Shown here piece by piece: positions 1 to 46,780 of a stretch of 50,959 nt of DNA. The stretch spans positions 1 to 50,959 of the forward strand of contig JAIXXV010000012.1 of assembly GCA_027490575.1 (NCBI GenBank), read 5' to 3'. A program made the translations under genes and the position numbers. Positions within the stretch are counted from its first letter, which is position 1; the number at the start of each line of letters is the position of its first letter. Below the pieces are notes generated by a model. That model searched no databases and was not told the origin of the DNA. It saw only the letters and a program-made list of their open reading frames with translations. The stretch is from a bacterium (GTDB lineage Bacteria; Patescibacteriota; Minisyncoccia; Phycocordibacterales; CAIZLB01).

Positions 1-86
1 AGTGTGTAAAAATAAAAACCAAGTAAACCACCTATAAGTAGACTCGCTATAATTAAAACCAATAAGATTGCATTCTTCTTAGACAT
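1..86 (-). CDS. N-terminus of a membrane-anchored protein (partial)
   Basis: An ATG at 84-86 opens a minus-strand frame that stays open to the window edge, so only the first 28 residues are visible. It begins MSKKNAILLVLII and continues as one hydrophobic segment of about 22 residues, a signal anchor or uncleaved signal peptide. A TGATATAAT box lies 10 nt upstream, which supports the start. It is the next gene after the pilin-transglycosylase fusion on the same strand, so it may belong to the secretion locus. The function cannot be named from this fragment. Confidence 0.6.
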   Translation of the reverse strand, partial: MSKKNAILLVLIIASLLIGGLLGFYFYT

Positions 87-164: not shown

Positions 165-1154
165 TTATCTAAGTGTTGACCAATATGCAGAACCACCCCT
201 CCATCCACCAGGTTGTCTACAAGATATACAACCATCATTTCTAAGTTGTCTTGCGAGTATCTCAATACCTACATCTAAGTTTTTATATGGATCTTGTAAA
301 TCAGCTTGAGTATAACCCCTTCTTTTAACTTCAGGATCATCTGTCGAGAGTTGTAGTAAGCCAACCGAGTATTTATTCATAGACGTTTCCCAGTATAAAG
401 TATCAGGTTTAAAACTAGATTCTAGTTTTACCATACCAGCTATAATCGAATTCCATCCAGCTGCTGTTACTTCTCCGTTTGGAAAAAACCTGCTTGCATC
501 TGATGGATTTATATCTAGCAATCCATGTCTTGCTATCAACTCATTAACATAATTGGTTGTTTCGGGGTTTGTAAAGCTAGATAATCTAAACTTTTCTGTA
601 CCAGGTATTAAGTCCCCTGTATAATTACCATTCTCATCCCAAGTTGTAGAAGGTCCGTTGTTTTCACCGTTATTTCCTCCGTTGTTACCCCCACCCCCAT
701 CCAAATCAATACCACCATTACCATTGATACCAGGAAGAGGAGCGAGTGCATTTATCTGTACATCATTACGTAAAAGCGCAGGATTAAGCTGATTAAGAAT
801 CAAAACAGATGTAAGTGCCAAAAGTAGACCAAGTAATGCTTGCTGAATGATTGCTTTACCCTCACCTTTACCAGTAATCGCATCAGTAGATGTATACAAG
901 AAACCACCATACATCACCATTATCAATGCTAAACCTGTAGCTATTGCAATACCAGCTCTAAACAATGCATCAAAATATGCAGATATACCACCCTCTGTAC
1001 TAATGTTAACTGTGGGGCCAAACAATGTACCTAGTGGTGCCAGCAAAGTGTAGGTGCCGTTCCATGAGCCGATTTGCTCTTGGGCTATAGCAAAATAAAA
1101 AGGTGTAACACTGCTTATTAAAAAAAGTAAAAATAATAGTTTTTTAAATTTCAC
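165..1154 (-). CDS. VirB2-like pilin domain fused to a lytic transglycosylase
   Basis: 329 aa. Residues 1-24 form a signal peptide. Two membrane helices (about 68-88 and 102-121) with the motif MVMYGGFLYT between them give a TrbC/VirB2-like pilin-type domain, which places the C-terminus outside the membrane. A Gly/Asn-rich linker (about 143-168) leads to a C-terminal lytic-transglycosylase-like domain: Glu245 in MVKLESSF is the likely catalytic acid and GLLQLS (265-270) is the usual following motif. Known family role: cleaving glycan strands so a secretion apparatus or pilus can cross the wall (VirB1 role). Residues 26-150 are nearly identical to the neighbouring upstream gene. Pilin domain fused to hydrolase is seen directly; a role in a T4SS-like machine is inferred from the locus. 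Confidence 0.8.
   Translation of the reverse strand: MKFKKLLFLLFLISSVTPFYFAIAQEQIGSWNGTYTLLAPLGTLFGPTVNISTEGGISAYFDALFRAGIAIATGLALIMVMYGGFLYTSTDAITGKGEGKAIIQQALLGLLLALTSVLILNQLNPALLRNDVQINALAPLPGINGNGGIDLDGGGGNNGGNNGENNGPSTTWDENGNYTGDLIPGTEKFRLSSFTNPETTNYVNELIARHGLLDINPSDASRFFPNGEVTAAGWNSIIAGMVKLESSFKPDTLYWETSMNKYSVGLLQLSTDDPEVKRRGYTQADLQDPYKNLDVGIEILARQLRNDGCISCRQPGGWRGGSAYWSTLR
702..1078. repeat. Direct repeat copy 1 (pilin-domain coding)
   Basis: A 377-bp segment aligns without gaps to 1731-2107 (offset 1029). I counted about 21 mismatches by hand, roughly 94% identity. It encodes the shared pilin domain, and most differences are synonymous. Confidence 0.9.
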
Positions 1155-1193
1155 AAATATATTTTATCACAAATTAAAAACAAATATTTAGAT

Positions 1194-2249
1194 TTACCTT
1201 ACCGGTGTCCCTGCCCTATATATATAAGTACTCAAACCTTTCCCAGTATAATAATTGTACCAAGAAGTAGGTGTTTGATTATCTCTTACCTCTTGAGCGG
1301 AAGTACTATTAGAAACTATTCTACCGTTAGATGTGTATATTCCTACGTGTCCTATATTATCACCTTGGGTTGGAGATATGATGATGTCACCAGGTCTAAG
1401 ATCCGAGGCTTGATTTCCTGCATAGAAAAAAGTATCACTGTTTCTTAGGTCTCTATACATATCAGCTGTCAGTCTCCCAAAACTAGCCTCATTGTCAGGT
1501 CTACCAGTAATCGGTTTTCCTAAGGCGTCGTTAACTATATCGTTTACAACATACGCACAGGCTAATTTTCCGTTTCCTGTATTAACAACATTACAAGTAT
1601 CTTTACCTATCATGTTTCTTGCAACTGTATCAAGTCTTTGTGCCTCTGTTCCGTTTATAACCCCTCCTGTGAAAACAGGTGCATCAGTTCCGTTGTTTAC
1701 TGGGTTTAGACCACCATTCCCACCCCCACCCAAATCAATACCACCATCACCGTTGATACCAGGAAGAGGAGCGAGTGCATTTATCTGTACATCATTACGT
1801 AAAAGCGCAGGATTAAGCTGATTAAGAATCAAAACAGATGTAAGTGCTAAAAGTAAACCAAGTAATGCTTGTAAAATGATTGATTTACCCTCAGCTTTAC
1901 CAGTAATTGCATCAGTAGATGTATACAAGAAACCGCCGTACATCACCATTATCAATGCTAAACCAGTAGCTATTGCAATACCAGCTCTAAACAATGCATC
2001 AAAATATGCAGATATACCACCCTCTGTACTAATGTTAACTGTAGGACCAAACAATGTACCTAGTGGAGCTAGGAGTGTGTAGGTGCCATTCCATGAGCCG
2101 ATTTGCTGGGGCGCTTGTCTTTGTAAAGGAACGGTGTTTGCTAAGGAAATATCAGCTGGTAAAAGCAAAGACATGAAAGAAAGCGACAAAACCATAAAAG
2201 TAAAAATTGCCACAAAGAGTCCTTTAAGTTTTAATCTTAATATTTTCAT
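1194..2249 (-). CDS. VirB2-like pilin domain fused to an NlpC/P60- or CHAP-type peptidase
   Basis: 351 aa from the ATG at 2249; a GTG at 2276 would add nine residues, but the ATG leaves a cleaner signal peptide (1-37). Residues 49-170 repeat the two-helix pilin domain of the downstream gene almost exactly. After a Gly-rich linker, residues about 200-351 form a papain-like amidase/endopeptidase: Cys231 in ACAYVV, the substrate-cleft motif LRPGDIII (284-291) and His301 in GHVGIYT. Family role: hydrolysis of peptidoglycan peptides. The paired gene carries the glycan-cleaving activity, so the two could open both wall bonds under the same membrane anchor. NlpC/P60 and CHAP cannot be separated by eye. 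Confidence 0.8.
   Translation of the reverse strand: MKILRLKLKGLFVAIFTFMVLSLSFMSLLLPADISLANTVPLQRQAPQQIGSWNGTYTLLAPLGTLFGPTVNISTEGGISAYFDALFRAGIAIATGLALIMVMYGGFLYTSTDAITGKAEGKSIILQALLGLLLALTSVLILNQLNPALLRNDVQINALAPLPGINGDGGIDLGGGGNGGLNPVNNGTDAPVFTGGVINGTEAQRLDTVARNMIGKDTCNVVNTGNGKLACAYVVNDIVNDALGKPITGRPDNEASFGRLTADMYRDLRNSDTFFYAGNQASDLRPGDIIISPTQGDNIGHVGIYTSNGRIVSNSTSAQEVRDNQTPTSWYNYYTGKGLSTYIYRAGTPVR
1731..2107. repeat. Direct repeat copy 2 (pilin-domain coding)
   Basis: Partner of 702-1078. Identity ends abruptly at the Gly-rich linker on one side and just before the shared QIGSWNG segment on the other, so only the pilin module is shared. Confidence 0.9.
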
Positions 2250-2285
2250 TATTTCTAAATGATAAATGAGTGCCACTTTGTGAAC

Positions 2286-3539
2286 CTATGAACCAAATGA
2301 TTCCCCAGATCCATCTGTAGCAGGGTTTTGTTCTGAGTTTGTGCTTGTCTGAGGTATTTCATTTCCTTCTGTTACCGGGCTTTCTGTTCCAAAGCCTTCA
2401 GATCCACCTGATCCAAATGGTGTTGTGTTGGAAGTTTTATCGTATATAACATTTACCAAAGCAGAAGCTTTTTGGAGTATGTGAGTAGGGTTTCCGACCA
2501 CAACAGCCACTGAAGAAACACCTGACTCTTCATCTGTTCTTCTGAAAACAGTAGATGACTGCTTGTTCTGTATATTTAAAGGTGAATCATTTAGAAACCA
2601 TCTAAAAGTTGTATTCATAGATCTGTCTGGTGTACTAAAGTGAAAAGGATAAGCAACAAGTCTAAACTCTTTGCTTCCCAAAGTAACATCACCTTCTATG
2701 TTTTTGTTGAAAAGTATACCCAGTGTCGGGTGATCTTCGTAGAACAATACTTGTGGGTTTACTCTGTTCAAAACAAGACTATTTCTACCTTTTACATTTC
2801 GGTTTGATACAGCGTATACCTCTGTTTGGATACTATCATCTCTGTTTATGATAGGTCCTTTGTATTTAAATGAGTTTCTACCAAAGCCAGAACTAGGAAA
2901 TTTCAAGTCATAGTTTACTTTCCAGTTATAGACAATATCAGCAGGGTTTATACGTCTGTTTTGTATAACCATGTTGGGTAATGCTACCAGTGTAACTTCA
3001 GATTCTGGCGTGTATAGAGCTTTTCCTTTGTAAAAAGGTGGTGTGTATGTATTTGCTTGCCACAAAAAGTCCACGTCTACTGGATTGAAAGTGAACGACC
3101 TTTCTATGGTCATACCCACTGACGGGTCTATTTTTACTTTCACATTTGATAATTCCCCTGCTCTACCTGCTTTAAACGTAAACCTAAACTCACCGAAACC
3201 TTTTAGAGACTCTCTTCCGTTGATGGTCCATGTATAAAAGTTTGTATTTGTATCTACTCCAAAAGTTTGAATAGTTATTGTTACATCTTTACCTGGTTGT
3301 GGTATTTCAGGAACAATGTCTACAGATAACTGCTCTTCTATACCTGGAACTCCTGATGAGCTAGTGTTAGACATTGATCCTGTTGATTGTGAACCCGTGC
3401 CACCTGTTGTGTAAAGGTTGGGTGTAATTTGAGCTGTAGCAGTATTGTAAAAAAACACATTAAGCACAACTAACAACGTGATTACTGATAACAGAAAATT
3501 ACTAGATTGGTTTTTTGATGAGCTTTTTACTATCAACAT
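2286..3539 (-). CDS. Secreted beta-rich protein with PKD/Ig-like repeats, unknown role
   Basis: 417 aa with an N-terminal signal or anchor helix (about 14-36), a Ser/Thr/Gly-rich stretch, then PKD-like segments (PGKDVTITIQ followed by FYTWTINGRES, and later FRWFLNDSPL), and a Ser/Gly/Glu-rich tail. Its stop lies 36 nt before the ATG of the NlpC/P60 fusion gene on the same strand. It is probably an extracytoplasmic structural component of the secretion locus, but no known T4SS subunit is recognisable. The ATG at 3539 is supported by a -10 box 6 nt upstream. Confidence 0.6.
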   Translation of the reverse strand: MLIVKSSSKNQSSNFLLSVITLLVVLNVFFYNTATAQITPNLYTTGGTGSQSTGSMSNTSSSGVPGIEEQLSVDIVPEIPQPGKDVTITIQTFGVDTNTNFYTWTINGRESLKGFGEFRFTFKAGRAGELSNVKVKIDPSVGMTIERSFTFNPVDVDFLWQANTYTPPFYKGKALYTPESEVTLVALPNMVIQNRRINPADIVYNWKVNYDLKFPSSGFGRNSFKYKGPIINRDDSIQTEVYAVSNRNVKGRNSLVLNRVNPQVLFYEDHPTLGILFNKNIEGDVTLGSKEFRLVAYPFHFSTPDRSMNTTFRWFLNDSPLNIQNKQSSTVFRRTDEESGVSSVAVVVGNPTHILQKASALVNVIYDKTSNTTPFGSGGSEGFGTESPVTEGNEIPQTSTNSEQNPATDGSGESFGS

Positions 3540-3573: not shown

Positions 3574-4101
3574 TTATTTTGCACCCGGAACCATACCGCC
3601 AACAATCTCCTTTGCTTCAACACTACCGTAGTTTAATAATACATTTAATATAAATCCTGGGAACATGTTCAGTACAGGTACAAGTTCTATGAGAGATGCG
3701 CCACCAAACTTAGCAACAGCTTTTGCGCTTTTGAACTCTATACCGCGTCTTTTATACATAAACCAAAGTGTTAGTGTGCCTGTAGGTGTAATGAATATTG
3801 TTGAAATAACACCACCTATCGCTGGTATAAGGTTTATAAGACCAGACAAAAGGTCAAAGAATCCAGCAACTCCTAACATGAAAACAAAATCAATTTTTGA
3901 TGTTTTTTTACCATTTGTTCTAACCGATGACACTCTGCTATTTTTCGCCATTTTCTTTTGTCGCAAAAATTGATTCATGTTCATTTTTAGGCCTTCCAAC
4001 CTTGCCTTGTGGTACTCCTGAATATCCACCTTTCTGTTTTCTAAGGTGTTTTGATCTCCTCCTGTTGTTGCTGAGCTCTCTGTATTTTCGTTTTCGTCCA
4101 T
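3574..4101 (-). CDS. Small polytopic membrane protein, unknown
   Basis: 175 aa. The first 60 residues are polar and charged (Glu/Thr/Asn, then basic). Three hydrophobic segments follow at about 71-90, 94-113 and 134-158, with glycine- and proline-rich turns such as NLIPAIGGVIS. It lies 50 nt downstream of virB4 on the same strand, so it is probably an inner-membrane accessory of the secretion apparatus. The hydrophobic pattern loosely recalls DUF4112-type proteins; I cannot confirm that assignment. Confidence 0.5.
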   Translation of the reverse strand: MDENENTESSATTGGDQNTLENRKVDIQEYHKARLEGLKMNMNQFLRQKKMAKNSRVSSVRTNGKKTSKIDFVFMLGVAGFFDLLSGLINLIPAIGGVISTIFITPTGTLTLWFMYKRRGIEFKSAKAVAKFGGASLIELVPVLNMFPGFILNVLLNYGSVEAKEIVGGMVPGAK

Positions 4102-4151: not shown

Positions 4152-6032
4152 CTATTTTCCTTGCACTATATTGGTCTGGTTGTCAGGATCATTCATCATC
4201 ATATTGTTGCTATCCACCACACCCTTTGAGGCCAGCTCTACTCTAGCCCTCTTCATGTTTAGGATTTCAGAAGGAGTTGAAGTGATGATTTGGTCTTCAG
4301 TATATGAGGCTATGATCTTTATGGCTACGTGTTTTAGACCTGCAAAGAATATACCCTCTCCCACGTCAGACTCAAGCAGTAGATATTTTTCTTCATCAGT
4401 TAGGTTAAATGTTTTTTGAACTACATCTATAGATGATGGTGATTGCTTTAGGAGTACTTGTATCGAAGAGTTGGTGATGATAGGTAGTCCATAAGGCGAT
4501 TTCAAGAAGTCTTCTACATCTTGTGTGATAGTGGCTAGTCCTAGATAGTATTTACGGCCTCTTTTGGCAAGACCTAGCAAAAAAGAAGCAGTATCTTCTG
4601 ATTTCATCATCCACCATGCCTCATCTATAACCAAAAGCCTTTTCTTTAGCTCTTTTCTGATCTGGTTCCATATGAAGTGCATTACAATGTACATTGCCAC
4701 GGGTTTCAACTCATCTTCCATGTCTCTAAGTGAGAACACTACAAGTTTTTTGTTGATATCAACATTTGATGGTCTGTTGATAAAACCTGACCAAGTACCT
4801 TTCGTATACTTTGTAAGTCTTTGCACAAGCGACTCTCCCCCTTCCATACCAGCAAGCACTAGCTCAAAGTCAGACATCAAAGGCGGCTCAACTTTTGAAA
4901 AATCAGAATCAGCTGTAATGTCTTTAAGTGCATATGTTTCTGTGATTGCTCTATCGATAATAGAGTCTTCTTCTGGAGTCAGACCCCCGAGCATTATACG
5001 AAAAAGCCCTACTAGGTTTACGATGTTTGATCGTAGTACATCGGCACTAGACTCGTCTTCTCTGGGTGTTGGAAGGTCAAATGGGTTTATATGGTGCTCA
5101 GATGTTAGTGATATGTTGAAAAAACGCCCACCTGTAGCCTCCGCTAAGTACTCATACTCTCGCTCTGGGTCCATGATTATAACGTCCGTATCGAACATCA
5201 TTGATCTCAAAACCTCCAGCTTTGTGGCATAAGACTTACCAGAACCAGACTTTGCAAAGGTTATAGAGTTATAGTTTTCAAGTGAGAATCTATCAAAAAG
5301 TATAAGACTTGAGTTGTGTCTGTTGATACCATAAAGAATACCTTTGTCTGATGTAAGGTCGAATGATATGAATGGGAAAATACTAGAAAGTGGTGATGAG
5401 TTCAACTTTGAATAGATCTTTAGTTGGTCATCAGCAATAGGTAGAACACTCTTGTAACCTTGCTCTTGCTGGAATAATGCTGGTTTTAGATAAACAAGAC
5501 TAGCTTCAAGTATAGATTTTACTTCAGACTCTATCCTGTCTAGTTCTGACTCATTGTCTCCATATATAGATATATATAATCCTACATCGAAAATCCTCTC
5601 CTGCGCTTGTTGTAGGCTATCTCTGAGAGATTCTAGGTCTTGGTAGGCGGTGTCCAGTATAGGGTCTCTCACAAGCCCCTTCTCCTCTCTAAGGTGTATC
5701 TGACTTTGTACCTCCGCCACTTTCTTTTGGAATGTTCTAAGTATAGACGCTGTATCTATAGGATGAATGCTTATGGAAATATCAAAAATTTTATCTAGGT
5801 TGATGATCGGGGCAAACCAGCTTTCAGACAAAAATCTAGGATATGATATTACAAAAAAAGTTCTTACCAGCTTGTCTCCCAAGTTCAACGCTCTCGGACT
5901 TACTTTTAGTGCAGAAGGTGCAATGATATCTTGAAGTTCTAGAACTCCAGACTGGTAAATCTCCTGTGGTAGAACAGATGCTATAGGGCTAGTATCATTT
6001 TTTTTACTTGAGAATATGTTAAAAAGTCCCAT
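4152..6032 (-). CDS. virB4: VirB4/TraC-family T4SS ATPase
   Basis: 626 aa. Walker A KSGSGKSY at about 262-269, the following IIMDPEREY segment, Walker B LLVIDEAWW at about 465-473, and the later ITQDVEDF motif are classic VirB4/TraC features. The N-terminal 240 residues are the ATPase-associated CagE/TrbE-like part. Family role: hexameric motor at the cytoplasmic face of a type IV secretion channel. A separate 210-aa gene just upstream encodes an additional TraC-like N-terminal domain, so the usual single polypeptide appears to be divided. No VirD4 coupling protein or VirB11 is in the window. Confidence 0.9.
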   Translation of the reverse strand: MGLFNIFSSKKNDTSPIASVLPQEIYQSGVLELQDIIAPSALKVSPRALNLGDKLVRTFFVISYPRFLSESWFAPIINLDKIFDISISIHPIDTASILRTFQKKVAEVQSQIHLREEKGLVRDPILDTAYQDLESLRDSLQQAQERIFDVGLYISIYGDNESELDRIESEVKSILEASLVYLKPALFQQEQGYKSVLPIADDQLKIYSKLNSSPLSSIFPFISFDLTSDKGILYGINRHNSSLILFDRFSLENYNSITFAKSGSGKSYATKLEVLRSMMFDTDVIIMDPEREYEYLAEATGGRFFNISLTSEHHINPFDLPTPREDESSADVLRSNIVNLVGLFRIMLGGLTPEEDSIIDRAITETYALKDITADSDFSKVEPPLMSDFELVLAGMEGGESLVQRLTKYTKGTWSGFINRPSNVDINKKLVVFSLRDMEDELKPVAMYIVMHFIWNQIRKELKKRLLVIDEAWWMMKSEDTASFLLGLAKRGRKYYLGLATITQDVEDFLKSPYGLPIITNSSIQVLLKQSPSSIDVVQKTFNLTDEEKYLLLESDVGEGIFFAGLKHVAIKIIASYTEDQIITSTPSEILNMKRARVELASKGVVDSNNMMMNDPDNQTNIVQGK

Positions 6033-6088: not shown

Positions 6089-6721
6089 CTAGGAAACGTG
6101 TATTGGTTTTTCAACATCACCAGGGTTGAATATCTTGTAGAAAAGTTCTATAAGCTCTTCGGTCCCTAGCTCAGCTATACGTATACCGCAACGTACTAGA
6201 CCTTGCTCAACCACCTCTATCCTTTGCTGTAGCTGACTTCTGTTTTCCTCAAATGTAGATTTTTCATCACTTATATTTGTTTTATTACCAAAAAAGGCTT
6301 TTTTAACATTGGTTGTATTGGCCAGCGATGGAGAATAAGGTATCACTACAAAAAAGCTTTTGGTCATGATGTTTGTAGACTCCGTAAAGCTCTTTATGAA
6401 ATCTATATATTCTCTCGTTTGCATTTTCATCAAATCGCCAGTTTGATCCTTTAGCCTTTCCTCTAAAAGCGCTATATATGGCCTTATATCAAGCCTTCTG
6501 GACTGTGTATATATTTGAACACTGAAGTTTATAGAGTTCAAAAAGTTTTGAAATTGGAAAAGTATTGATTGTTGTTCATCCACTGACTTCAGGGCAAAGT
6601 TTAGAGATGAGGCGAGTAGTATCGCTCTCATACTATTGTCTTTCAAAACCAATATACCATCACGTATTTCTTTTATAGGTACAAATGCTTGTGTAGGTTT
6701 TGAATTCGGTTTAGAGTCCAT
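6089..6721 (-). CDS. Separate TraC/VirB4 N-terminal-domain protein
   Basis: 210 aa with no Walker motifs. It begins with a VPIKEIRDGILVL-type strand and continues as alternating strands and helices (LLASSLNFAL, FLNSINFSVQIYTQSR, SFFVVIPYSP). This pattern matches the N-terminal domain of TraC/VirB4 proteins that contacts the membrane complex. It sits between the PrgI-like gene and virB4, the order usual in PrgI-type loci. The VirB4-related fold is inferred from pattern and position, not from a database hit. Confidence 0.65.
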   Translation of the reverse strand: MDSKPNSKPTQAFVPIKEIRDGILVLKDNSMRAILLASSLNFALKSVDEQQSILFQFQNFLNSINFSVQIYTQSRRLDIRPYIALLEERLKDQTGDLMKMQTREYIDFIKSFTESTNIMTKSFFVVIPYSPSLANTTNVKKAFFGNKTNISDEKSTFEENRSQLQQRIEVVEQGLVRCGIRIAELGTEELIELFYKIFNPGDVEKPIHVS

Positions 6722-6799: not shown

Positions 6800-7264
6800 T
6801 TAAAAGTGGTTTCTCGGCATTGCACCATCCCTACTCTGCAACTTACCTGTGTCTTTTGAGTAAATAGTTTCGTTGATGTCTAAACTCCAAGTTAGGTCTT
6901 TTAGCTTACTTTCAGATAGCTTGGGCACTGATATGGATGTTTTTGTCATCTCAATGATATCTTTATCCTTAGCTGATATTTTCTTGTCTTCTTTTCTCCA
7001 TATATAAAGTTTGTGTGAAAGTGCAAAGTTGAACGCTGCCTCAAGTGTGTCTATAAAAGGTCTATTGTTAGGTCTATAAAATGCTAGCATACCAGAAACT
7101 GCTACTACAGGTAGTATTATCAACACTGAAACATATATTGGAAAAAATCTATACGCGATAAAACTAAGTCCTGCTCCACCGATCATGAAAACAAATTGTT
7201 TAAATGTGAATGGTCCAAATATTTTATCTTCTACTTCTATGAATTGAGGAACTTGGTATTTCAT
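6800..7264 (-). CDS. PrgI-family membrane protein of the T4SS locus
   Basis: 154 aa. It starts MKYQVPQFIEVEDKIFGPFT, the signature opening of PrgI-family proteins, followed by two adjacent membrane helices (about 23-63) and the segment FIDTLEAAFNF before the soluble tail. PrgI proteins are VirB3-like partners found beside virB4 in Gram-positive conjugation loci and in CPR genomes. Its place directly upstream of the TraC-like domain and virB4 fits. Confidence 0.8.
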   Translation of the reverse strand: MKYQVPQFIEVEDKIFGPFTFKQFVFMIGGAGLSFIAYRFFPIYVSVLIILPVVAVSGMLAFYRPNNRPFIDTLEAAFNFALSHKLYIWRKEDKKISAKDKDIIEMTKTSISVPKLSESKLKDLTWSLDINETIYSKDTGKLQSRDGAMPRNHF

Positions 7265-8764: not shown

Positions 8765-10810
8765 CTAATTTCTGTTCTGTGTAGTTTTCTTTTTCCATCC
8801 TTTACTTCTTATATAAGCCTGAGCTTTGGTTCTTTCTTTCCTCATATCATCTATTGCCCTCACGTAACCTTTTTGATTTCCAGCATCTTTACTCCAGGTT
8901 CCATTGGCGTCATCGAACCTGTCGTATTTAACCTCTTCTATTTCTTCTAGTGTCTCAAGTTCAGCTAACTCTGCTTTATCAAGGTCTTTAGTAGAATCTC
9001 TACTCTTTATTTGTTTTTGTTTATCATTCAGATATTTGATGCGTTTCATTGGACCCTCTTCAATCTCCTTGATCCTTTCTGTATATTTAGTAACTTCCTC
9101 ACTAATTGCAGTTTTCATCAGATCATCAGAGGCTTTAGAATTTGACCTCCCCCATCTTGATGAAAGACTCCTTGCGTACTTCGATCTACCAACTTGACCC
9201 ATTGTATTACCAAATTCAGTTTTACTTTTTGCCTTATCTTCAATGGCTTGTTTTATACCACCTGTCTTCTCATCACCAAGATTTATACCTTGTGAACCAA
9301 GTCCTTTTTTAAGTGATGATATGCCTCTCAAGTCCATACTGGCTTTAGATGTTTTACTTAAAGCAGAAAAAACATTTCTCCCAACATATCCTGTTGAGTT
9401 TTTACCACCCCATGCTTTCTCACTACTCGCCCACGCGTTCGCAGCTCTCCCGACAGTTTGTCTACTTGCCCATGCCGCCGTACCAAGTACTGCCCCACCT
9501 GCAACTTTACTAGCCATCCCTGCTCCGGCTGCCCCAGCTTTGTTGGCTACAAGTATACACCCTATCATCAATGCGTTTAGTACTACAAAAGTAAATGCTG
9601 TAACAGCAACACTATCGACACCAGACCCTGTAAACATTCCCAAGAAGTCTACAGTCCTGTTACCCCTACCTATGATCATACTCATTACCACGTACATCAA
9701 CATCATATACACAGGTGCATACATCAAGTTGCTAGAAAGTGCGCTCCACCACTTACTAGAAATCTCTTTTGTCATTGGAAGTATTCCGCCAATCCATGCG
9801 AAAGGTGACATTATCATTAGGAATATTAAAACCAAAGTTCTAACCAACATCATAATTGCTCCGGCCAGGAACACAACCGCTGTGACCATTATAAATACAG
9901 AACCAAAAACGCCGGCTGTAAGGATGTTTAACCAGTCTAAATCATTTTGTGCACTTGCTTCTATGTCCACTGCATTTCCTTGAGTACCAGCTGACCATAT
10001 TTGGTCTAGACCCATTGCATGTGCAAAGGCAGCTGATATACCAGAGTCGGCATCATTGAGGTATTGTTGGTTACCACCTGCAACAAGAGAGTCGGTTGAG
10101 TTTTGAACTATCTTGGTGTAGAACTGCAATGCGAGTATGTTTGATGCATCAACCATAGCCTTTGTGAAAAACAAACTAAAGTTTATAAGTATTGCTGCAA
10201 CTATCACTTGCGAAAGAAGTTTTTTTGATCCAAATGCTTCTTTTCCAACAATCATATTTATGGCTATAAATAGTATTATAAATACAAAGAATACCAATGA
10301 TATGTCTCTAAATGCTCCCCATCCCACATCTATGATATTGAATTGCTCTATAAATTTAGGCATGTTCAATGTGTAATCTAGTATGAAGTTGAATGCTATA
10401 CCTGAAAAGTAAAGGAAATATCCTGACGTTGATAGCATTATGTATGACATACACGTCGTTACTTGGGATGCATAAGTCCCCTTTTCAAAAAAACCAAAAT
10501 TACAAAAGTCTTTTGAAGGTACACCCGGACCTGTTCCAGATGCTAAGGAAGGTGTGACTCCTACAGCCGCTTCTGCTCTTCCCCCTTCGCTTACACCTCT
10601 TTCATTGGGTGTGACCTGTTGTTGAGATGCTCTACCGTCAGGGTTTGAACTGTTCGGTATTCGACCGCCAGGGTTGACCTGCAGTTCCCCGGCACCTCTT
10701 TGTGGAGGTGTCTCTGCATCCACCCCCTGCGGAACCATCATCAAACAAACAACTAGCAACATCAAAACACTGATTGTTTTTTGAAGAGTTTTGTTTGAAA
10801 AGAAGTTCAT
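8765..10810 (-). CDS. VirB6/TrbL-like polytopic membrane protein
   Basis: 681 aa from the ATG at 10810; a GTG at 10852 would extend it by 14 residues, but the ATG gives a clean signal sequence (ending near GVDAE). After a Gly/Pro-rich region, six or more membrane helices follow between about residues 125 and 445, with the patterns IILFIAINMIVG, LVRTLVLIFLMIMSPFAWIG and LNALMIGCILVANKAG typical of the TrbL/VirB6 superfamily. The C-terminal 230 residues are charged and probably cytoplasmic. Family role: inner-membrane channel component of T4SS. Confidence 0.8.
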   Translation of the reverse strand: MNFFSNKTLQKTISVLMLLVVCLMMVPQGVDAETPPQRGAGELQVNPGGRIPNSSNPDGRASQQQVTPNERGVSEGGRAEAAVGVTPSLASGTGPGVPSKDFCNFGFFEKGTYASQVTTCMSYIMLSTSGYFLYFSGIAFNFILDYTLNMPKFIEQFNIIDVGWGAFRDISLVFFVFIILFIAINMIVGKEAFGSKKLLSQVIVAAILINFSLFFTKAMVDASNILALQFYTKIVQNSTDSLVAGGNQQYLNDADSGISAAFAHAMGLDQIWSAGTQGNAVDIEASAQNDLDWLNILTAGVFGSVFIMVTAVVFLAGAIMMLVRTLVLIFLMIMSPFAWIGGILPMTKEISSKWWSALSSNLMYAPVYMMLMYVVMSMIIGRGNRTVDFLGMFTGSGVDSVAVTAFTFVVLNALMIGCILVANKAGAAGAGMASKVAGGAVLGTAAWASRQTVGRAANAWASSEKAWGGKNSTGYVGRNVFSALSKTSKASMDLRGISSLKKGLGSQGINLGDEKTGGIKQAIEDKAKSKTEFGNTMGQVGRSKYARSLSSRWGRSNSKASDDLMKTAISEEVTKYTERIKEIEEGPMKRIKYLNDKQKQIKSRDSTKDLDKAELAELETLEEIEEVKYDRFDDANGTWSKDAGNQKGYVRAIDDMRKERTKAQAYIRSKGWKKKTTQNRN

Positions 10811-10889
10811 ATAAAACAAAATGAATTTTGCAAATGACGCTTTTTTCTGCACTTATGTGCAGACTGCGTTAATGCAATATATATTTAAA

Positions 10890-19794: not shown

Positions 19795-20094
19795 ATATAT
19801 TGGAATTATTAAAAAAAGATAAAAATTTACTAAATACTATCAAAATACTACCAATATTTTAAACCCATTATTCAATATTGACAAACATCGGGCGTACTCT
19901 TAACATATATGTATACAGTTATTTCAGAACGATATTCACCAAAAAAGCCCTTATTTATAGGCATTTTTTGTTTCCAGTGGTCCGCAAAACCAACTAATTT
20001 AAACTATATTTTAAAGACCCCTCAAGATTTACACAGCAGGCCACAGTCAGGTAGCTATGTAAAGACATACAAGAAAAGTAAGAAATTGCTCGGT

Positions 20095-21246
20095 ATGAGT
20101 ACTTTTGAGGCTTTCAATCCAACAACTTTTAAATCTAAAGTGCTGTTTTTTTCTATTACGACTATATTATTAGGGACTTCAGCTACCGCTGCCCTTGTTC
20201 CAAAGGAGTCATCAGCTGACATGTTCTCACTACTTTCATCTGTATTCCAGTCTAGTTCTGTTGGAAAAGAGCCAGAAATAACGATTTCTGAGAAAAACAT
20301 ACAAAGTATGCAACTTCTTGCTCCTACTAGGGTCCCAGTGAAAACCGCCTCAAGTACAGAAGATCTAAAGTTGTTTATGAAAGAATCATCTAGAGTTGTT
20401 GACGGTATTGCTCTTAGTAATGAGAATACAGCAACTGTAAATGGCCACACTGATTTATTTGATAAAGATCTTCAATCAGACAAGATAAGTCTATATACGG
20501 TCAGAAATAACGATACTATAGAGCAAATAGCGCGTATGTTTGGAGTAAATGTCAGTACTATACTATGGGCCAATGATTTAAAAAGAGGTGTAGCCCTAAA
20601 ACCTGACCAGGTTTTGGTTATAATGCCGATCTCAAGTATTCAGCACATTGTTTCAAGGGGTGAAACAGTCCAATCTATTTCTAAAAAGTACGGTGCAGAT
20701 ATAGAAGAGGTTATTCAATTCAACAACATTGGTGATGACCAAAAACTTACCGTTGGCACTGTTATCATTATCCCTGATGCCGAAGGCTCACTAACTCTAG
20801 CTGAGTCTAAGAAAAAGGAAGAGGAAGACAAGAAGTCATCGAAGGCTCAGTCAAAGACCAAGAAAGGTACACTTTCTTCAAAGATAACTACAACAAGTTC
20901 AGCTGGTTACTTCTCTAGACCAGTTGCAGGTGGTGTCAGGACTCAAGGTATACACGGTCACAATGGTATAGATATTGCAGCTCCGCTAAATACGCCTATA
21001 CTTGCTGCGGCTTCAGGTAGGGTTGTAGTTGCCAAAGATGGTGGTTGGAATGGTGGGTACGGTAGCTATGTTGTTATTCAGCACGACAATGGTATGCAGA
21101 CCCTTTACGCTCACCTAAACAGAGTTGATGTAAGTGTTGGAAACACTGTATCAAAAGGTCAGACTATAGGAGCGATGGGTACTACTGGAAGATCTACAGG
21201 TATACACCTACACTTTGAAGTTAGAGGTGGTAGAAATCCTTTCTAA
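20095..21246 (+). CDS. LysM-LysM-M23 cell-wall endopeptidase
   Basis: 383 aa from the ATG at 20095; the frame is open from 19909, but the later start puts the export helix (KVLFFSITTILLGTSATAA, about 15-33) at the N-terminus. Two LysM domains (about 134-180 and 182-228) bind peptidoglycan. A Lys/Ser-rich linker leads to an M23 metallopeptidase (about 277-383) with HNGIDIA near 288 and HLHFEVR near 370 as zinc/catalytic motifs. Family role: cleaving peptide cross-links, or activating other hydrolases, during growth and division. The end stops at GGRNPF, slightly short of the usual NPxxYL. The gene converges on comM and overlaps it by 26 bp. Confidence 0.85.
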   Translation: MSTFEAFNPTTFKSKVLFFSITTILLGTSATAALVPKESSADMFSLLSSVFQSSSVGKEPEITISEKNIQSMQLLAPTRVPVKTASSTEDLKLFMKESSRVVDGIALSNENTATVNGHTDLFDKDLQSDKISLYTVRNNDTIEQIARMFGVNVSTILWANDLKRGVALKPDQVLVIMPISSIQHIVSRGETVQSISKKYGADIEEVIQFNNIGDDQKLTVGTVIIIPDAEGSLTLAESKKKEEEDKKSSKAQSKTKKGTLSSKITTTSSAGYFSRPVAGGVRTQGIHGHNGIDIAAPLNTPILAAASGRVVVAKDGGWNGGYGSYVVIQHDNGMQTLYAHLNRVDVSVGNTVSKGQTIGAMGTTGRSTGIHLHFEVRGGRNPF

Positions 21247-33757: not shown

Positions 33758-34684
33758 CTATGAAGTATGGTTTTTATTTTCCATAAAATCATAAACCACC
33801 TTGGCTAGTTTCCCAATCCGGAAATAACTAGTTGGTGATATGGATTTATTAACAGAGAGTGTGGCTATTGAATACTTAGACTTTTGCCCTGTGACAACTC
33901 CCGCATCATTACTCCAGCGTATTATCGCCCAACCCTTTTTGATAATTGCATTTAGAGCAGACAAAAGACTATGTTTATATAAATTTGTTTCAAACCAGCC
34001 ACCTTTACAATAGTATTCTGAATATACGTTTGCTAGCCACAAACCCTTTTTACTTTTTTTATCAAAATGGAGCATGTAATCTTTGAGCCTTTTTGAAACA
34101 AAAGGAGACACCAGTTCTTGAGTTTCAACAAGATAGAAAAACTCTACTAGGTGTCGAGCGCAAGAAAGAGTTGTGGATGAAAACTGATATTTACCATCTT
34201 CTTTTTTTCTATCCAAAAATTTTCTTGTAATCTCGCTTCCTTTCCAATTATATCTATTGATAATGTTGCTGGTTATGTTTTCTCGACCAATAACATCTAT
34301 AAGTGTATTTGAGGCGGTATTGTCGCTTCTTGTTAGCATAAGATCAAGTAGATGATCAATAGAAACATTTTCACCAGCATTGAGTATCTTTCTGGTGTCT
34401 CCTGGAAATATTTTACTATCTTTGTCTACGTCATTCGGAGACTTAATCTCTACGATTTGTTCAAGTGAAAGCTGTCCAATTTCAATCTGTCTAAGGGCCT
34501 CTGCGGCTATAAAAATCTTATAAACAGATGCGGGATATATAAAATGATCCATGTTATACCCAAAAACATGTGGTGCAAGATTGTTTAAATCTATAACAGC
34601 AAGCCCGATTTCGTTCTCTGTAAAACCGTCTTTGGTCAGAAGATTTGAAATCTCTTTGCTGAGTTCTGTGTTTTCAGGAAACAT
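33758..34684 (-). CDS. Serine beta-lactamase/PBP-fold protein without signal peptide
   Basis: 308 aa. PASVYK near residue 50 (SxxK with the nucleophilic Ser), TRSDNTAS near 115 (SDN) and CKGGWF near 228 (a KTG-like triad, here Lys-Gly-Gly) follow the class A beta-lactamase order and spacing. No signal peptide or membrane helix precedes the fold. A TGCTATATT box 6 nt before the ATG supports this start. Possible roles are a peptidoglycan-related hydrolase or a true beta-lactamase; absence of export makes a cytoplasmic esterase or peptidase equally possible. Confidence 0.75.
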   Translation of the reverse strand: MFPENTELSKEISNLLTKDGFTENEIGLAVIDLNNLAPHVFGYNMDHFIYPASVYKIFIAAEALRQIEIGQLSLEQIVEIKSPNDVDKDSKIFPGDTRKILNAGENVSIDHLLDLMLTRSDNTASNTLIDVIGRENITSNIINRYNWKGSEITRKFLDRKKEDGKYQFSSTTLSCARHLVEFFYLVETQELVSPFVSKRLKDYMLHFDKKSKKGLWLANVYSEYYCKGGWFETNLYKHSLLSALNAIIKKGWAIIRWSNDAGVVTGQKSKYSIATLSVNKSISPTSYFRIGKLAKVVYDFMENKNHTS

Positions 34685-41909: not shown

Positions 41910-43727
41910 ATGTACATTGAACCTACTCAACTTAAAAAATATATTCTTGAATCAGGACTAGTTTCATCCAAGGATATCATTGCTGCAGAAAAAGCTGCTG
42001 AGGAGGCAAATGCAAAAGAGGGTGTTGTTAATAAACAAGACGTTGGAGATGTGCTTGTGTCACAAGGTAAGATTTCTGAGGATGACTATAGAAGGATGCA
42101 GTCGCATATACTAGGAATTCCATATGTTGATTTGAAAAAGCAAAAGTTGGAGTTTGAAGTTTTGTCTTTAATACCTGAGCCTATTGCAAGAAATCACAAC
42201 ATCATCGCATTTAAAAAAACTACAAGTACAACTCCAAATGCGAAGGGTGAGAAAGAAGGATCACTTGAAGTTGCGATGTTGGATACTGATGACTTAGGAG
42301 CTATTGATTTTATAAAAAAGAAAACGGGTTTGAAGATACTTCCGCGACTTACAAACACTGAGTCGATGAAGTCAGCATTGATTCAATATCAAAAAAGTCT
42401 AAAGGCGGATTTCGGAGATATTATTCAACAAGAAGCTTCTACTTTGAAAGTGACAGGTGAAGGGGATGGGTCAGCTGATGTGTCTGGTGATGATTTGAAG
42501 AAGCTAGCTGAGGATCTTCCTGTGGTGCGTATTGTTGATACGCTTTTAAAGCACGCAGTTTTGCAGGACGCTTCTGATATACACATTGAGCAGATGGAGT
42601 ATGAAGTTGTTGTTAGATACCGTATAGACGGTATGTTGCATGATGCGATGATACTTCCAAAGGTTGCCGGTTCAAGTATTATTGCGCGTATAAAAGTATT
42701 ATCGAGTTTGAAGCTTGATGAGAAAAGACTTCCACAAGATGGTCGTTTTCGTATTGAACTAAACGGTGAGAAGATATCATTTCGTGTTTCGATACTACCT
42801 ACATACTTTGGTGAAAAGATTGTTATGAGACTTTTGCGAGAAACTGTTTCTGGATTTACACTTGAGAAGCTTGGATTCCACGGTGTTGATCTTGAAATGC
42901 TGCACGAGGCAACAAACATGTCAGAAGGGTTGATACTTACGACAGGTCCAACAGGTTCTGGTAAGACTACTACTTTGTATACCATGCTTGATCTTGTAAA
43001 TACTCCAGATGTAAACATATCTACTGTAGAAGATCCTGTTGAATATCAGATGAAAAGAGTCAATCAAACTCAAGTAAAGCCGGAGATTGGATTTACTTTT
43101 GCATCAGGACTTCGTTCACTACTTCGACAAGACCCGGATATCATCATGGTAGGAGAAATCCGAGATAATGAAACAGCTTCACTTGCGATCAACGCAGCGC
43201 TTACTGGTCACTTGGTACTTTCTACTTTGCACACCAACTCAGCTGCTGGTGCAATACCGAGACTTATGGATATGAAATGTGAACCTTTCCTTCTTGTGTC
43301 TACATTGAAGATTGTCATTGCCCAGAGACTTGTTCGTCGTCTAAACGATACAAAAGAAAAATACATATTAACAAAAGAAGAACTCGAGTCTATAAAGAAA
43401 AAGATAGACATGGATTTTGTTCTTAAGAGACTCAAGGAAGAGAGGATTGTTGGTGCAAATGATGATTGGTCTACAATTCCTCTGTATAGACCAAAGCAGG
43501 ATCCTATTAACGAAGCAGAGGATGGATATCATGGTCGTCTTGGTATTCACGAAGTTTTGAAGTTTTCTTCAGCTATTAAAGAGATAGTTATGAAAAATGG
43601 TACAAGTGATGATATAGAGAAACAAGCAAGATCTGAAGGTATGATGACTATGATAGAAGATGGTATATTTAAGGCGGTACAAGGACAAACTTCTGTTGAG
43701 GAGATACTTAGAGTTGTATCGGAATAG
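41910..43727 (+). CDS. pilB: Type IV pilus assembly ATPase PilB (GspE family)
   Basis: 605 aa. The N-terminal GspE-N domain (about 1-150) is followed by the ATPase with Walker A GPTGSGKTTT (near 347), the Asp box VEDPVEY, Walker B DIIMVGEIRD (near 411) and the His box STLHTNSA. The zinc-binding tetracysteine loop usual in PilB/GspE is missing: after AQRLVRRL the segment NDTKEKYILT has no Cys. It powers pilus extension. It starts the cluster with pilC and the pseudopilins. Confidence 0.94.
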   Translation: MYIEPTQLKKYILESGLVSSKDIIAAEKAAEEANAKEGVVNKQDVGDVLVSQGKISEDDYRRMQSHILGIPYVDLKKQKLEFEVLSLIPEPIARNHNIIAFKKTTSTTPNAKGEKEGSLEVAMLDTDDLGAIDFIKKKTGLKILPRLTNTESMKSALIQYQKSLKADFGDIIQQEASTLKVTGEGDGSADVSGDDLKKLAEDLPVVRIVDTLLKHAVLQDASDIHIEQMEYEVVVRYRIDGMLHDAMILPKVAGSSIIARIKVLSSLKLDEKRLPQDGRFRIELNGEKISFRVSILPTYFGEKIVMRLLRETVSGFTLEKLGFHGVDLEMLHEATNMSEGLILTTGPTGSGKTTTLYTMLDLVNTPDVNISTVEDPVEYQMKRVNQTQVKPEIGFTFASGLRSLLRQDPDIIMVGEIRDNETASLAINAALTGHLVLSTLHTNSAAGAIPRLMDMKCEPFLLVSTLKIVIAQRLVRRLNDTKEKYILTKEELESIKKKIDMDFVLKRLKEERIVGANDDWSTIPLYRPKQDPINEAEDGYHGRLGIHEVLKFSSAIKEIVMKNGTSDDIEKQARSEGMMTMIEDGIFKAVQGQTSVEEILRVVSE

Positions 43728-43777
43728 CCAGACAGGTAACAAATAGCAGGTATCAGATAACAGTTAAGAATTGGCGG
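43725..43777 (+). repeat. Stop-proximal degenerate repeat, copy B
   Basis: Begins at the pilB TAG stop: ACAGGTAACAAATAGC, then AGGTATCAGATAACAGTTAA and GAATTGGCGG. The GGTATCAGATAACAG core equals that in copies A and D. Confidence 0.7.
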
Positions 43778-43788
43778 TCGGTCGGGGG

Positions 43789-43794
43789 TATAAT
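43789..43794 (+). promoter_or_regulatory. -10 box before pilC
   Basis: TATAAT about 48 nt before the pilC ATG, next to repeat copy B. Confidence 0.4.
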
Positions 43795-43842
43795 AAATTT
43801 GGAAAGAAATCGAAAACATGAAATAAACAAAACAGCAAACAA

Positions 43843-45057
43843 ATGAATTTTTCATACACAGCTATAAATAAAGAAGGTCAAAAATACACAGGTACTCTTG
43901 AAGCTCAGAGTAAATCTGATTTTTATGCACAAATAAAAAAGACAGGTGACTCTCTTGTTTCGGTCAAACAACAAGGTAAAGCTGGATTGTCATCATTCAA
44001 CATACAGCTTACATTTTTGGATAGGATAAAAATGTTAGACAAAATAACTTTTGCAAGAAACCTGGGAAACATGCTAGATGCTGGACTTGAACTCTCTCGC
44101 GCATTGAGTGTAATGGAAAGGCAGGCTAGTAGCCCTAAACTTAAGGGCATATACAAGAAAGTCGGAGAATCTATATCCGAGGGTAAAAGTTTTCACGAGG
44201 CGCTAGAACTTCATCCCAAAGCATTTTCAAAACTTGTAGTTGCGATGGTTAAGGTAGGTGAAGAGGGTGGAAACCTAGCAAGCACCTTACAACAAGTTGC
44301 ACTACAGATGGAAAAAAGCTATCAACTCAAGAAAAAGATAAAGGGTGCAATGATGTATCCGTCTGTGATTATAGGTGTGATGATTGTCATTGCAATATTG
44401 ATGATGATATATGTTGTTCCTGGTCTAACTAAAACCTTCACTGAACTAAAGGTTCCATTACCGGCATCTACTCAAATGGTAATAAATGTCAGTGACTTTA
44501 TGAGTAATAATTCAATACTAACATTTGTAATTTTGATTGTAGCGGTAGTATCTTTTATATTGCTACTTAGGACAAAGATAGGAAAAAGATCTTTTGATTA
44601 CATTGTTTTAAAGATTCCTGTTGTCAGCACTATTATAAAAGAGGGAAACTCAGCGCAAATGTCCCGAACACTTTCATCGCTTTTGTCATCCGGAGTCGAT
44701 CTTGTAATGGCAGTTAGGATAACAGGTGAGGTTTTGCAAAACTCGTATTATAAAGATGTTTTGATAAGAAGCGAAAAAATAGTTGAAAAAGGGGAGCCAC
44801 TCTCTACTGTTTTTATGGCTGAACAAAAACTTTTTCCTATATTTGTAGGCGAAATGATGAATGTTGGTGAAGAAACTGGACGTATGGCACCTATGCTTGT
44901 TGGTGTTGCCACTTTTTATGAAAATGAAGTAGACCAAAAGACAAAAGACCTCTCTACTATCATTGAGCCAGTACTGATGGTATTCATAGGTTCAGCTGTA
45001 GGATTCTTTGCTATATCAATGATCAAACCTATATATTCAATAATGAATAATGTTTAA
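43843..45057 (+). CDS. pilC: Type IV pilus inner-membrane platform protein PilC (GspF family)
   Basis: 404 aa. Two GspF repeats: FARNLGNMLDAGLELSRAL (about 67-85) and MSRTLSSLLSSGVDLVMAV (about 273-291), each followed by helices VAMVKVGEEGGNL and GEMMNVGEETGRM. Three membrane helices at about 171-196, 225-245 and 375-395. It is the membrane platform between PilB and the growing pilus. Confidence 0.95.
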   Translation: MNFSYTAINKEGQKYTGTLEAQSKSDFYAQIKKTGDSLVSVKQQGKAGLSSFNIQLTFLDRIKMLDKITFARNLGNMLDAGLELSRALSVMERQASSPKLKGIYKKVGESISEGKSFHEALELHPKAFSKLVVAMVKVGEEGGNLASTLQQVALQMEKSYQLKKKIKGAMMYPSVIIGVMIVIAILMMIYVVPGLTKTFTELKVPLPASTQMVINVSDFMSNNSILTFVILIVAVVSFILLLRTKIGKRSFDYIVLKIPVVSTIIKEGNSAQMSRTLSSLLSSGVDLVMAVRITGEVLQNSYYKDVLIRSEKIVEKGEPLSTVFMAEQKLFPIFVGEMMNVGEETGRMAPMLVGVATFYENEVDQKTKDLSTIIEPVLMVFIGSAVGFFAISMIKPIYSIMNNV

Positions 45058-45060
45058 ATT

Positions 45061-45552
45061 ATGTCTGAAATAAATCTGAAAAATTATACAAAAAAAGATA
45101 AAGGCGGATTTACGCTAATGGAAATATTGGTAGTCATAGGTATTTCAGCGCTAATACTAACTGCTACCATAACAACATTCTCTGCAATGGGGGATATGCA
45201 ATCTTTGGACAAAGATGTAGAAGTAGCAGAGTCTTATCTTATAAAGGCAAAAAATCAAACTGTGAATGCCAGATCTGGAATACAGTACGGTGTACATTTT
45301 GCTAGCAGTACGGTTACATTGTTTGACGGCACTGTTTATTCAGCAGGATCATCTACGAATTCTGTTTATAGATTATCAAATAAGTCCGAAATATCATTGA
45401 TAGGCTTGTCAGGCCAATCTAGAGTGTATTTTGAGGAAGTAACCGGAAAACCAAGTGCAACTGGAACTGTAACATTTAGACTTAAATCAAACCCAAGTGT
45501 AACTAAATCTTTAATAATTCATGCGACAGGTCTTGTTGAGGTTAGTAATTAA
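45061..45552 (+). CDS. Type IV prepilin-like protein (pseudopilin 1)
   Basis: 163 aa. Basic leader, then the prepilin-peptidase site KGG/FTLMEILVVIGISAL with Glu at +5 of the mature form, followed by one hydrophobic helix and a beta-rich head. GspH/FimT-like by its arrangement. It starts 3 nt after the pilC stop, so it is translated from the same message. Confidence 0.88.
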   Translation: MSEINLKNYTKKDKGGFTLMEILVVIGISALILTATITTFSAMGDMQSLDKDVEVAESYLIKAKNQTVNARSGIQYGVHFASSTVTLFDGTVYSAGSSTNSVYRLSNKSEISLIGLSGQSRVYFEEVTGKPSATGTVTFRLKSNPSVTKSLIIHATGLVEVSN

Positions 45553-45655
45553 CAGATAGAAGTTATCAGATGACAGATATCAGGTGTCAGATAACAGGTA
45601 ACAGGTGGCAGTTAGCAGGTAGCAGTTGCCCGGCAGAATTAAGAATTGAATAATG
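45550..45655 (+). repeat. Stop-proximal degenerate repeat, longest copy C
   Basis: Begins at the TAA stop of pseudopilin 1. Successive steps include CAGATAGAAG, TTATCAGATGACAGATATC, AGGTGTCAGATAACAGG, TAACAGGTGGCAGTTAGC, AGGTAGCAGTTGCCC and GGCAGAATTAAGAATTG. Confidence 0.75.
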
Positions 45656-45729
45656 TAGGCAAGAGAAAGAATTTAGAAGTTATATACAGACCTTTGTTAT
45701 TAGTGAGATATAAAAATATGAATTAGTGA

Positions 45730-45735
45730 TAAAAT
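45730..45735 (+). promoter_or_regulatory. Extended -10 box 6 nt before pseudopilin 2
   Basis: TGATAAAAT, then 6 nt, then ATG at 45742. Confidence 0.45.
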
Positions 45736-45741
45736 ATAAAT

Positions 45742-46251
45742 ATGTTTTTTCTGAATAATTATAAAAATGGTATGTCTCGTGTGCATGGCATGTCGCTTGT
45801 AGAGGTTATAGTCGGTTCTGCGATTATGCTTACCTCGATGGTATCTATCATAGGTGTTTATGGAAGTTTGACGTCCATGTCATTGCGTACTACACCTAGG
45901 GTTCAAGCAGCAATGTTAGTGGAAGAGACTGCAGAAGTCTTGAGGTTCATGAGAGATACTAGTTGGAACCAAAACATTTCAATCTTGGCAGATGCTACTT
46001 CATATCATTTACTCTGGTCAAATAACAGATGGGTGGCCACTACCAGCCCTGTCACAATTTCAAATCAATTTGTTAGAACGTTCATCTTATCACCGGTCAG
46101 TAGAGATGGTACTAGTTATGACATAGTGCAAACTGGCGGATCAGTAGATACAGGTACAAGAAAGGCGGACATAAATGTGTCATGGTTCGATGGCAATTCC
46201 ACAAGTACAAGGAGTGCTGAGATGTATGTCCATAATATATTTAGTAATTAA
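45742..46251 (+). CDS. Type IV prepilin-like protein (pseudopilin 2)
   Basis: 169 aa. A leader with a cleavage site at G/MSLVEVIVGSAIML, Glu at +5, and one hydrophobic helix. The globular part has AAMLVEETAEVLRFMRD, seen in GspI/PilV-like minor pilins. It starts a second pilin block with a probable promoter of its own after repeat C. Confidence 0.85.
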   Translation: MFFLNNYKNGMSRVHGMSLVEVIVGSAIMLTSMVSIIGVYGSLTSMSLRTTPRVQAAMLVEETAEVLRFMRDTSWNQNISILADATSYHLLWSNNRWVATTSPVTISNQFVRTFILSPVSRDGTSYDIVQTGGSVDTGTRKADINVSWFDGNSTSTRSAEMYVHNIFSN

Positions 46252-46255
46252 ATAA

Positions 46256-46780
46256 ATGATCAAATATAATAAAATTAGAACAAAGGGATTTACGCTTGTA
46301 GAAACAATTGTGTACCTGGCTTTATTCGTAGTTTTACTGGTAGGAATCATTAACTCAGTCTTAATACTTACGTCTTCATATAGAAATGTGAGGGTCGCCA
46401 GATCTATAGAGTCATCGGCAATAAATACTATGGATAGGATTATCCGAGAGGTTAGAAATGCTGAAAGTATAGATTATTCTCAATCAAATTTTGGCATAAA
46501 CCCAAGCGCCTTATCTTTAAATACAGTTGATGAATTGGGTAATACCGGCACAGTAAGGTTTTACGTTCAAGGTAACAGAGTCTTTTTACAAGAAAATGGA
46601 GTACTGTCCGGTCCTCTCACAAATGCAAATGTTACAGTGTCATCACTGATATTTAGAAATATTGTCTCAACTTCATCAACCGCTGTAAAAATTGAAATGT
46701 CTATATCAAGTACTTCTACCAATTCAGTTTTCATAACTAGAGACTTTCAAGGAACAGCTGTAATCAGAGGCTCGTATTAG
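46256..46780 (+). CDS. Type IV prepilin-like protein (pseudopilin 3)
   Basis: 174 aa. Leader and cleavage site KG/FTLVETIVYLALFVVLL, Glu at +5, then a head with MDRIIREVRNAESI typical of GspJ/PilW-like minor pilins. Starts 4 nt after the previous stop. Minor pilins of this set prime assembly and cap the fibre tip. Confidence 0.85.
   Translation: MIKYNKIRTKGFTLVETIVYLALFVVLLVGIINSVLILTSSYRNVRVARSIESSAINTMDRIIREVRNAESIDYSQSNFGINPSALSLNTVDELGNTGTVRFYVQGNRVFLQENGVLSGPLTNANVTVSSLIFRNIVSTSSTAVKIEMSISSTSTNSVFITRDFQGTAVIRGSY

Follow-up and report, generated by a model that had tools for sequence, protein, structure and literature searches.

At the end of a T4SS operon in the window, by which we mean the whole stretch of DNA analysed (a contig of 50959 bases), two adjacent genes on the minus strand encode a pilin-SLT fusion of 329 aa from a GTG start (165..1154) and a pilin-NlpC/P60 fusion of 360 aa from a GTG, or 351 aa from Met10 (1194..2276). 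The two proteins have a common layout: behind a signal peptide come two helices that form a module of about 100 residues, then a linker rich in Gly and Asn, and finally the enzyme at the C-terminus. In the SLT fusion, whose model has a pLDDT of 72, the module occupies aa 32-134 (753..1061), the linker aa 135-189 (588..752; pLDDT mostly 40-55), and the SLT/lysozyme domain aa 190-329 (168..587); in the NlpC/P60 fusion, the module lies at aa 63-165 (1782..2090) and the enzyme at about aa 211-360 (1197..1646), all on the minus strand. Both open reading frames of the original prediction are thus present, and the membrane domain that they were said to share is identical at 100 of 103 residues (94.3% at the DNA level). 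In each gene, the near-identical tract begins shortly after the signal peptide and ends where the linker starts (aa 26-155, 690..1079, and aa 57-186, 1719..2108, both minus strand), and 367 of 389 nucleotides are the same when the copies are aligned. With 22 differences, about 15 of them synonymous, the pair is not a single sequence assembled twice. The signal peptides and enzymes of the two proteins are mutually unrelated, and the paralogy originally proposed extends to the pilin module alone.

The neighbouring genes, also on the minus strand, are those of a patescibacterial (FATA-like) T4SS, with a CD1110-type VirB4 accompanied by PrgI and a sub-cut-off TrsD. Immediately upstream of the pilin slot lies the conserved gene O417 (2286..3539), followed by O175, a small membrane protein in the interval between VirB4 and O417 (3574..4101), the VirB4 ATPase of the CD1110 family (4152..6032; NF045971, 2e-110), a TrsD / VirB4 N-terminal-like protein (6089..6721) whose matches to TraC_F_IV (6.9e-5) and TrsD (1.4e-5) are both below cut-off, the VirB3-like PrgI (6800..7264; PF12666, 3.3e-11), and a polytopic protein without a family match that is, from its sequence and position, a candidate VirB6 (8765..10852). 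Downstream, a conserved gene assigned by synteny to the O463 family is cut by the contig end, with its start in the window (1..86). The VirB4 of the fusion operon is the only one found in the genome. Elsewhere in the window, inspection by eye picked out a type IV pilus-like cluster with PilB-/PilC-like and several prepilin-like proteins (41910-46780, plus strand), a further wall-enzyme candidate whose C-terminus is M23-like and which has LysM-like repeats (19909-21246, plus strand), and a serine hydrolase of the beta-lactamase/penicillin-binding type, recognized from its PASVYK motif (33758-34684, minus strand).

The C-terminus of the first fusion matches Pfam SLT at 4.3e-6, above the curated cut-off, and the catalytic residue foreseen for it, E245, was correctly numbered and forms an E245-S246 motif. 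Among solved structures it is closest to Bdellovibrio bacteriovorus DslA (6TA9; phmmer 9.7e-16; Foldseek 2.8e-4, probability 1.00), with which VIA aligned 136 residues at Z 9.3 and an rmsd of 3.4, as expected of a member of the SLT / GH23 lysozyme superfamily. By alignment, E245, E256 and Y324 of the window protein correspond to DslA E143, E154 and Y228, the last in a YW motif, with E256 placed in a low-confidence loop of the model. The second C-terminus had been read as NlpC/P60 or CHAP, of which the former stood and the latter did not: NLPC_P60 scores 2.6e-5 (24.6 bits against a cut-off of 23) and PDB chains of NlpC/P60 enzymes are matched at 5e-5, whereas CHAP remains below its Pfam cut-off. 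Its active-site residues are C240 and H310 when counted from the GTG start; the C231/H301 first given for them fit the ATG start at Met10. Because the enzyme part of the full-length model is poor (pLDDT about 40-78) and the fold search was uninformative, with no NlpC chain among the Foldseek and VIA rows, we limit claims about fold to the SLT domain, and the catalytic geometry singled out for checking is supported by sequence in both enzymes and by fold in SLT.

The VirB2-like character assigned to the module could be upheld by profile, but not by a direct Pfam match, as neither window protein matched T4SS_pilin (PF18895) at E<1. However, relatives in the same genomic slot exceed the curated cut-off of that family, some adding sub-threshold matches to TrbC/VirB2, and the profile tests succeed in both directions. 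The window genome (G000) carries on contig C19 six tandem small genes of the T4SS_pilin family (L036:5246-7785), far from its single virB4, which are probably partners or main pilins; an HMM of this array matches both window copies (about 1e-3 to 3e-3), and in reverse the profile of the module family, built with the array excluded, matches the array down to 2.6e-8. The strongest evidence for the pilin identity of the module is synteny. Nearly all of the loci fetched preserve the order VirB4 - [O175] - O417 - PILIN - O463, in which the pilin position is taken by a fusion or by a bare pilin (about 105-170 aa). The module can thus be placed, by profile, in the T4SS_pilin family, which runs counter to its being an unrelated anchor, one of the findings that would have spoken against the original prediction. 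AlphaFold predicts a confident helical hairpin in both proteins (residues 57-89/93-123 in the SLT fusion, pLDDT mostly 86-96, where the family profile scores 7e-32; pLDDT mostly 82-95 in the NlpC/P60 fusion), and among pilus structures the nearest is 8dfu, a conjugation pilin of Aeropyrum (VIA Z 8.3 and 8.0; 73 aligned residues, 18-19% identity), a match that is compatible rather than specific because a helical hairpin is a common shape. The likeness to archaeal conjugation pilins (CedA1, PDB 8dfu; TedC) consists of this two-helix hairpin of ~75 residues and argues weakly for kinship, and the known archaeal pilins, unlike the window fusions, have no C-terminal enzyme. A search of PDB sequences with the pilin profile for a conjugation pilin gave none, returning ArcB alone at E 0.8.

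What had been described as one pair turned out to be real but also to exemplify a pattern that spans the phylum and in which the enzymes are interchangeable. The module is present in 276 of 297 genomes of the order and in 137 of 153 sampled across the phylum. In our first sample, which held mostly one genome per family and whose loci we counted ourselves, about a third of loci had a hydrolase-type fusion and five had two modules. The C-terminal payloads include SLT, SLT_3, glucosaminidase, 3D, GH75 chitosanase-like (a barrel matching a viral chitosanase at 4e-4), NlpC/P60, M23, and M15 domains, and two further clusters are M15/hedgehog-like with an invariant His, Asp, His. Searches gave no match to the PDB for the M15-like cluster A4, no meaningful match for the CHAP-like C-terminus of G002 and G137, and no match for the C-terminus of the second G049 fusion. 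The arrangement is also not restricted to one genome: G179, a distant member of another family, repeats the SLT and NlpC/P60 pair on identical modules, and pilin-hydrolase fusions are met again throughout the order. Those seen in other classes of the phylum carry SLT, M15, M15-like or NlpC-like domains, and G374 has adjacent SLT and M15 fusions. The two G179 fusions (L088:3055-7562) further share about 400 identical residues preceding the module, so that their enzymes alone differ. Among other observations, pilin modules were seen with a C39 peptidase (L128), with an N-terminal GDSL lipase plus SLT (L135), and, by eye, with a long repeat-rich, beta-helix-like C-terminus (L056). Orthologous fused pilins of one family (L135 and L136, 67% identity) carry SLT in one and an NlpC-like domain in the other, an apparent exchange of enzymes.

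Where two enzymes occur together, they are complementary. In all 12 double-enzyme pairs (G000, G179, G049, G123, G151, G057, G082, G137, G002, G203, G148, and G374), one member cuts glycan and the other peptides, and in 8 of 12 both sides are clearly assigned by Pfam or profile clusters, although the G082 lysozyme and G374 M15 are below Pfam cut-offs. In the remainder (G049, G137, G002, and G148), the peptide side was assigned from motifs or, in G148, from a degenerate M15-like domain. Were types drawn at random (p = 0.5), 12 of 12 mixed pairs would have a probability of 2e-4 and 8 of 8 a probability of 4e-3, a calculation that ignores relatedness between the genomes.

The modules of same-genome pairs mostly resemble each other more than those of other genomes. 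In a tree of 97 sequences, all 14 same-genome pairs tested were sisters, with bootstrap 100 or identical sequences except for the near-identical G179 pair, which had a low fork value yet was grouped in all resampled trees. Module identity within pairs is 61-100% (at least 82% in 13 of 14), as compared to 46-69% to the nearest other genome, and within these pairs the signal peptides and enzymes differ despite the likeness of the modules. Fused and bare pilins of one genome are likewise similar (G017 91%, G191 88%, G086 82%). Enzymes, by contrast, can be followed between genomes: the SLT domains of G049 and G123, of the same genus, are 53% identical while their modules are 55% identical between and 98-100% within genomes; the M15-like enzymes of G151 and G191 are 53% identical with modules at 69% between and 88-100% within; and the 3D enzymes of G137 and G203 (59%) and the CHAP-like domains of G002 and G137 (52%) each exceed a module identity of 46%. 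Because shared enzyme lineages keep locally matching modules, these data indicate that modules are homogenised, by gene conversion or by re-fusion of enzymes onto the local pilin. Homogenisation is common but not automatic, as shown by G402 and G360, in which the fused and bare pilins of one locus are only 41% and 35% identical and follow ordinary orthology (67% across genomes). The peptidase genes of G049 and G123 also have N-terminal extensions that are more alike than in any of 1000 shuffles; since similar short motifs seem to recur in other members, we do not take this likeness to prove orthology.

Taken together, we favor the view, with a probability of roughly 0.6, that these are fusions of the VirB1-VirB2 type, in which pilin modules bring complementary hydrolases to one T4SS so that they open the peptidoglycan together. 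With a signal peptide and a K-rich loop between the helices, both termini of the hairpin are predicted to lie outside the membrane, and the enzyme, on its flexible linker, would face the wall. The hairpins would dock a glycan cutter and a peptide cutter at the same T4SS assembly, where we infer that both would be active and would jointly open the peptidoglycan for a pilus or channel. As the original prediction had it, the enzymes may sit on a pilus or at its base. Matched modules are to be expected if the two have to fit a single partner lattice or platform; gene conversion, or enzymes being fused again and again to the local pilin, could preserve their likeness even as the enzymes themselves diverge or are swapped. 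The simplest reading would be that VirB1 function is borne by VirB2-type subunits.

It is possible, though we hold it doubtful, that the enzymes instead sit on the pilus or at a contact site and cut the wall of a host, a lysozyme of the DslA type sparing the wall of the bacterium itself. Patescibacteria are thought to be epibionts (PMC11665869), and DslA, which aids Bdellovibrio in leaving its prey, is specific for GlcNAc-deacetylated peptidoglycan, using E143, E154, and a selective Tyr228 (PMC7511926). The window, G003 and G069 share its E143/E154/Y228 signature; in G086 and G106 the ES and YW motifs are retained but not the second acid. Given the closeness to DslA and this signature, deacetylated peptidoglycan may be the target of the window SLT domain, and a further glycan cutter, the GH75 chitosanase-like domain, is found on pilin modules. 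Searches of the window genome (93% complete) and of G001, G002, G003, G005, and G069 for a CE4 deacetylase gave no match, which together with the DslA-type residues would favor a non-self substrate. However, this specificity is deduced from three residues, one of them (E256) in the low-confidence loop; the genomes are incomplete, and deacetylase families other than CE4 exist. Moreover, many fusions bear ordinary SLT or peptidase domains, and opening the bacterium's own wall would alone require the same enzymes. The DslA protein also differs from the window enzyme in that it is not fused to a pilin. The most elaborate version, in which subunits with matched enzymes build the pilus or its base, an epibiont breaches the wall of its host, a lysozyme tuned to deacetylated peptidoglycan spares self, and the payload is swappable on a module evolving in concert, we consider unlikely as a whole.

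The hairpin could also serve only to anchor VirB1-like enzymes close to the T4SS, without ever becoming part of a pilus. Main-text passages of a December 2025 T4SS review (PMC12857230) describe the Gram-positive VirB1 homologues known so far as all membrane-anchored, and a hairpin would suffice for anchoring alone. An anchor, however, need not stay 82-100% identical across unrelated enzymes or between fusion and bare pilin, and the module sits exactly in the slot of the bare pilin, so we judge this account an unlikely one. Less probable still is that the modules match through neutral recombination with no selection for matching, whether by passive conversion of tandem repeats, which the tandem gene order favors, or by frequent duplication of the pilin part. 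The dS is about 0 in five pairs, which could have arisen by recent duplication plus domain swap, but exceeds 1 in others, and three (G002, G086, and G191) hold 82-88% protein identity at a dS of 0.9-1.7 (in G002, 83% at 1.71). In addition, the borders of the module coincide, or nearly so, with the ends of the tract in 9 of 10 pairs (G179 departs from this, its tract extending 400 residues further upstream), the enzymes of each pair are complementary every time, and the neighbouring pilins of G402 and G360 show that homogenisation need not occur. An assembly artefact, in which mis-joining duplicated the repeat, is hardly credible: the contig ends in or beside the module in G003 and G005 indicate that assemblers do stumble there, but the window copies differ at the 22 positions noted above and the same pattern is seen again in many independent assemblies. 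These contig ends (L117 and L040 in G003, L037 in G005) are suggestive of near-identical copies breaking assemblies.

Close counterparts among known systems are the Gram-positive VirB1-like proteins CwlT, PrgK, and TraG of pIP501, which are also encoded with a T4SS, tethered to the membrane, and able to cut both glycan and peptide. Whereas these hold both activities in one protein on a plain anchor, neither window protein carries both hydrolases; as originally predicted from the comparison with CwlT, the complementary activities are split over two proteins, each with a pilin-family module. Among the VirB2-like pilins of Patescibacteria, the arrays described in passages of a 2025 T4SS survey (PMC12102498) belong to the same T4SS_pilin family and lie near virB4, as do the window fusions, but have a mean identity of 25% and at most 54%, whereas the paired modules described here bear hydrolases and show, in most cases, 82-100% identity. 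The same passages report that some VirB1 homologues have an additional M23 or LysM domain, and conclude that a VirB2 pilus is made without VirB1, most genomes with VirB2 lacking it. Pilin-hydrolase fusions were not found in the searched main-text passages of PMC12102498, PMC12857230, PMC10936435, PMC11665869, and PMC11452946. The consecutive Pfam entries T4SS_pilin (PF18895) and the lysozyme-like SLT_3 (PF18896) may mean that curators saw both together.

T4SS genes are essential in the sole patescibacterium studied genetically. The fusions suggest that VirB1 has been missed because it is hidden within a pilin gene, and that enzyme-bearing and bare pilins co-assemble. The SLT E245 and Tyr324 and the NlpC C240 offer concrete targets for the question of whether the bacterium's own wall or that of a host is cut. 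The fusions thus hint at how, in tiny host-dependent bacteria, a pilus machine reported to be without wall-cutting parts may pass the cell wall.
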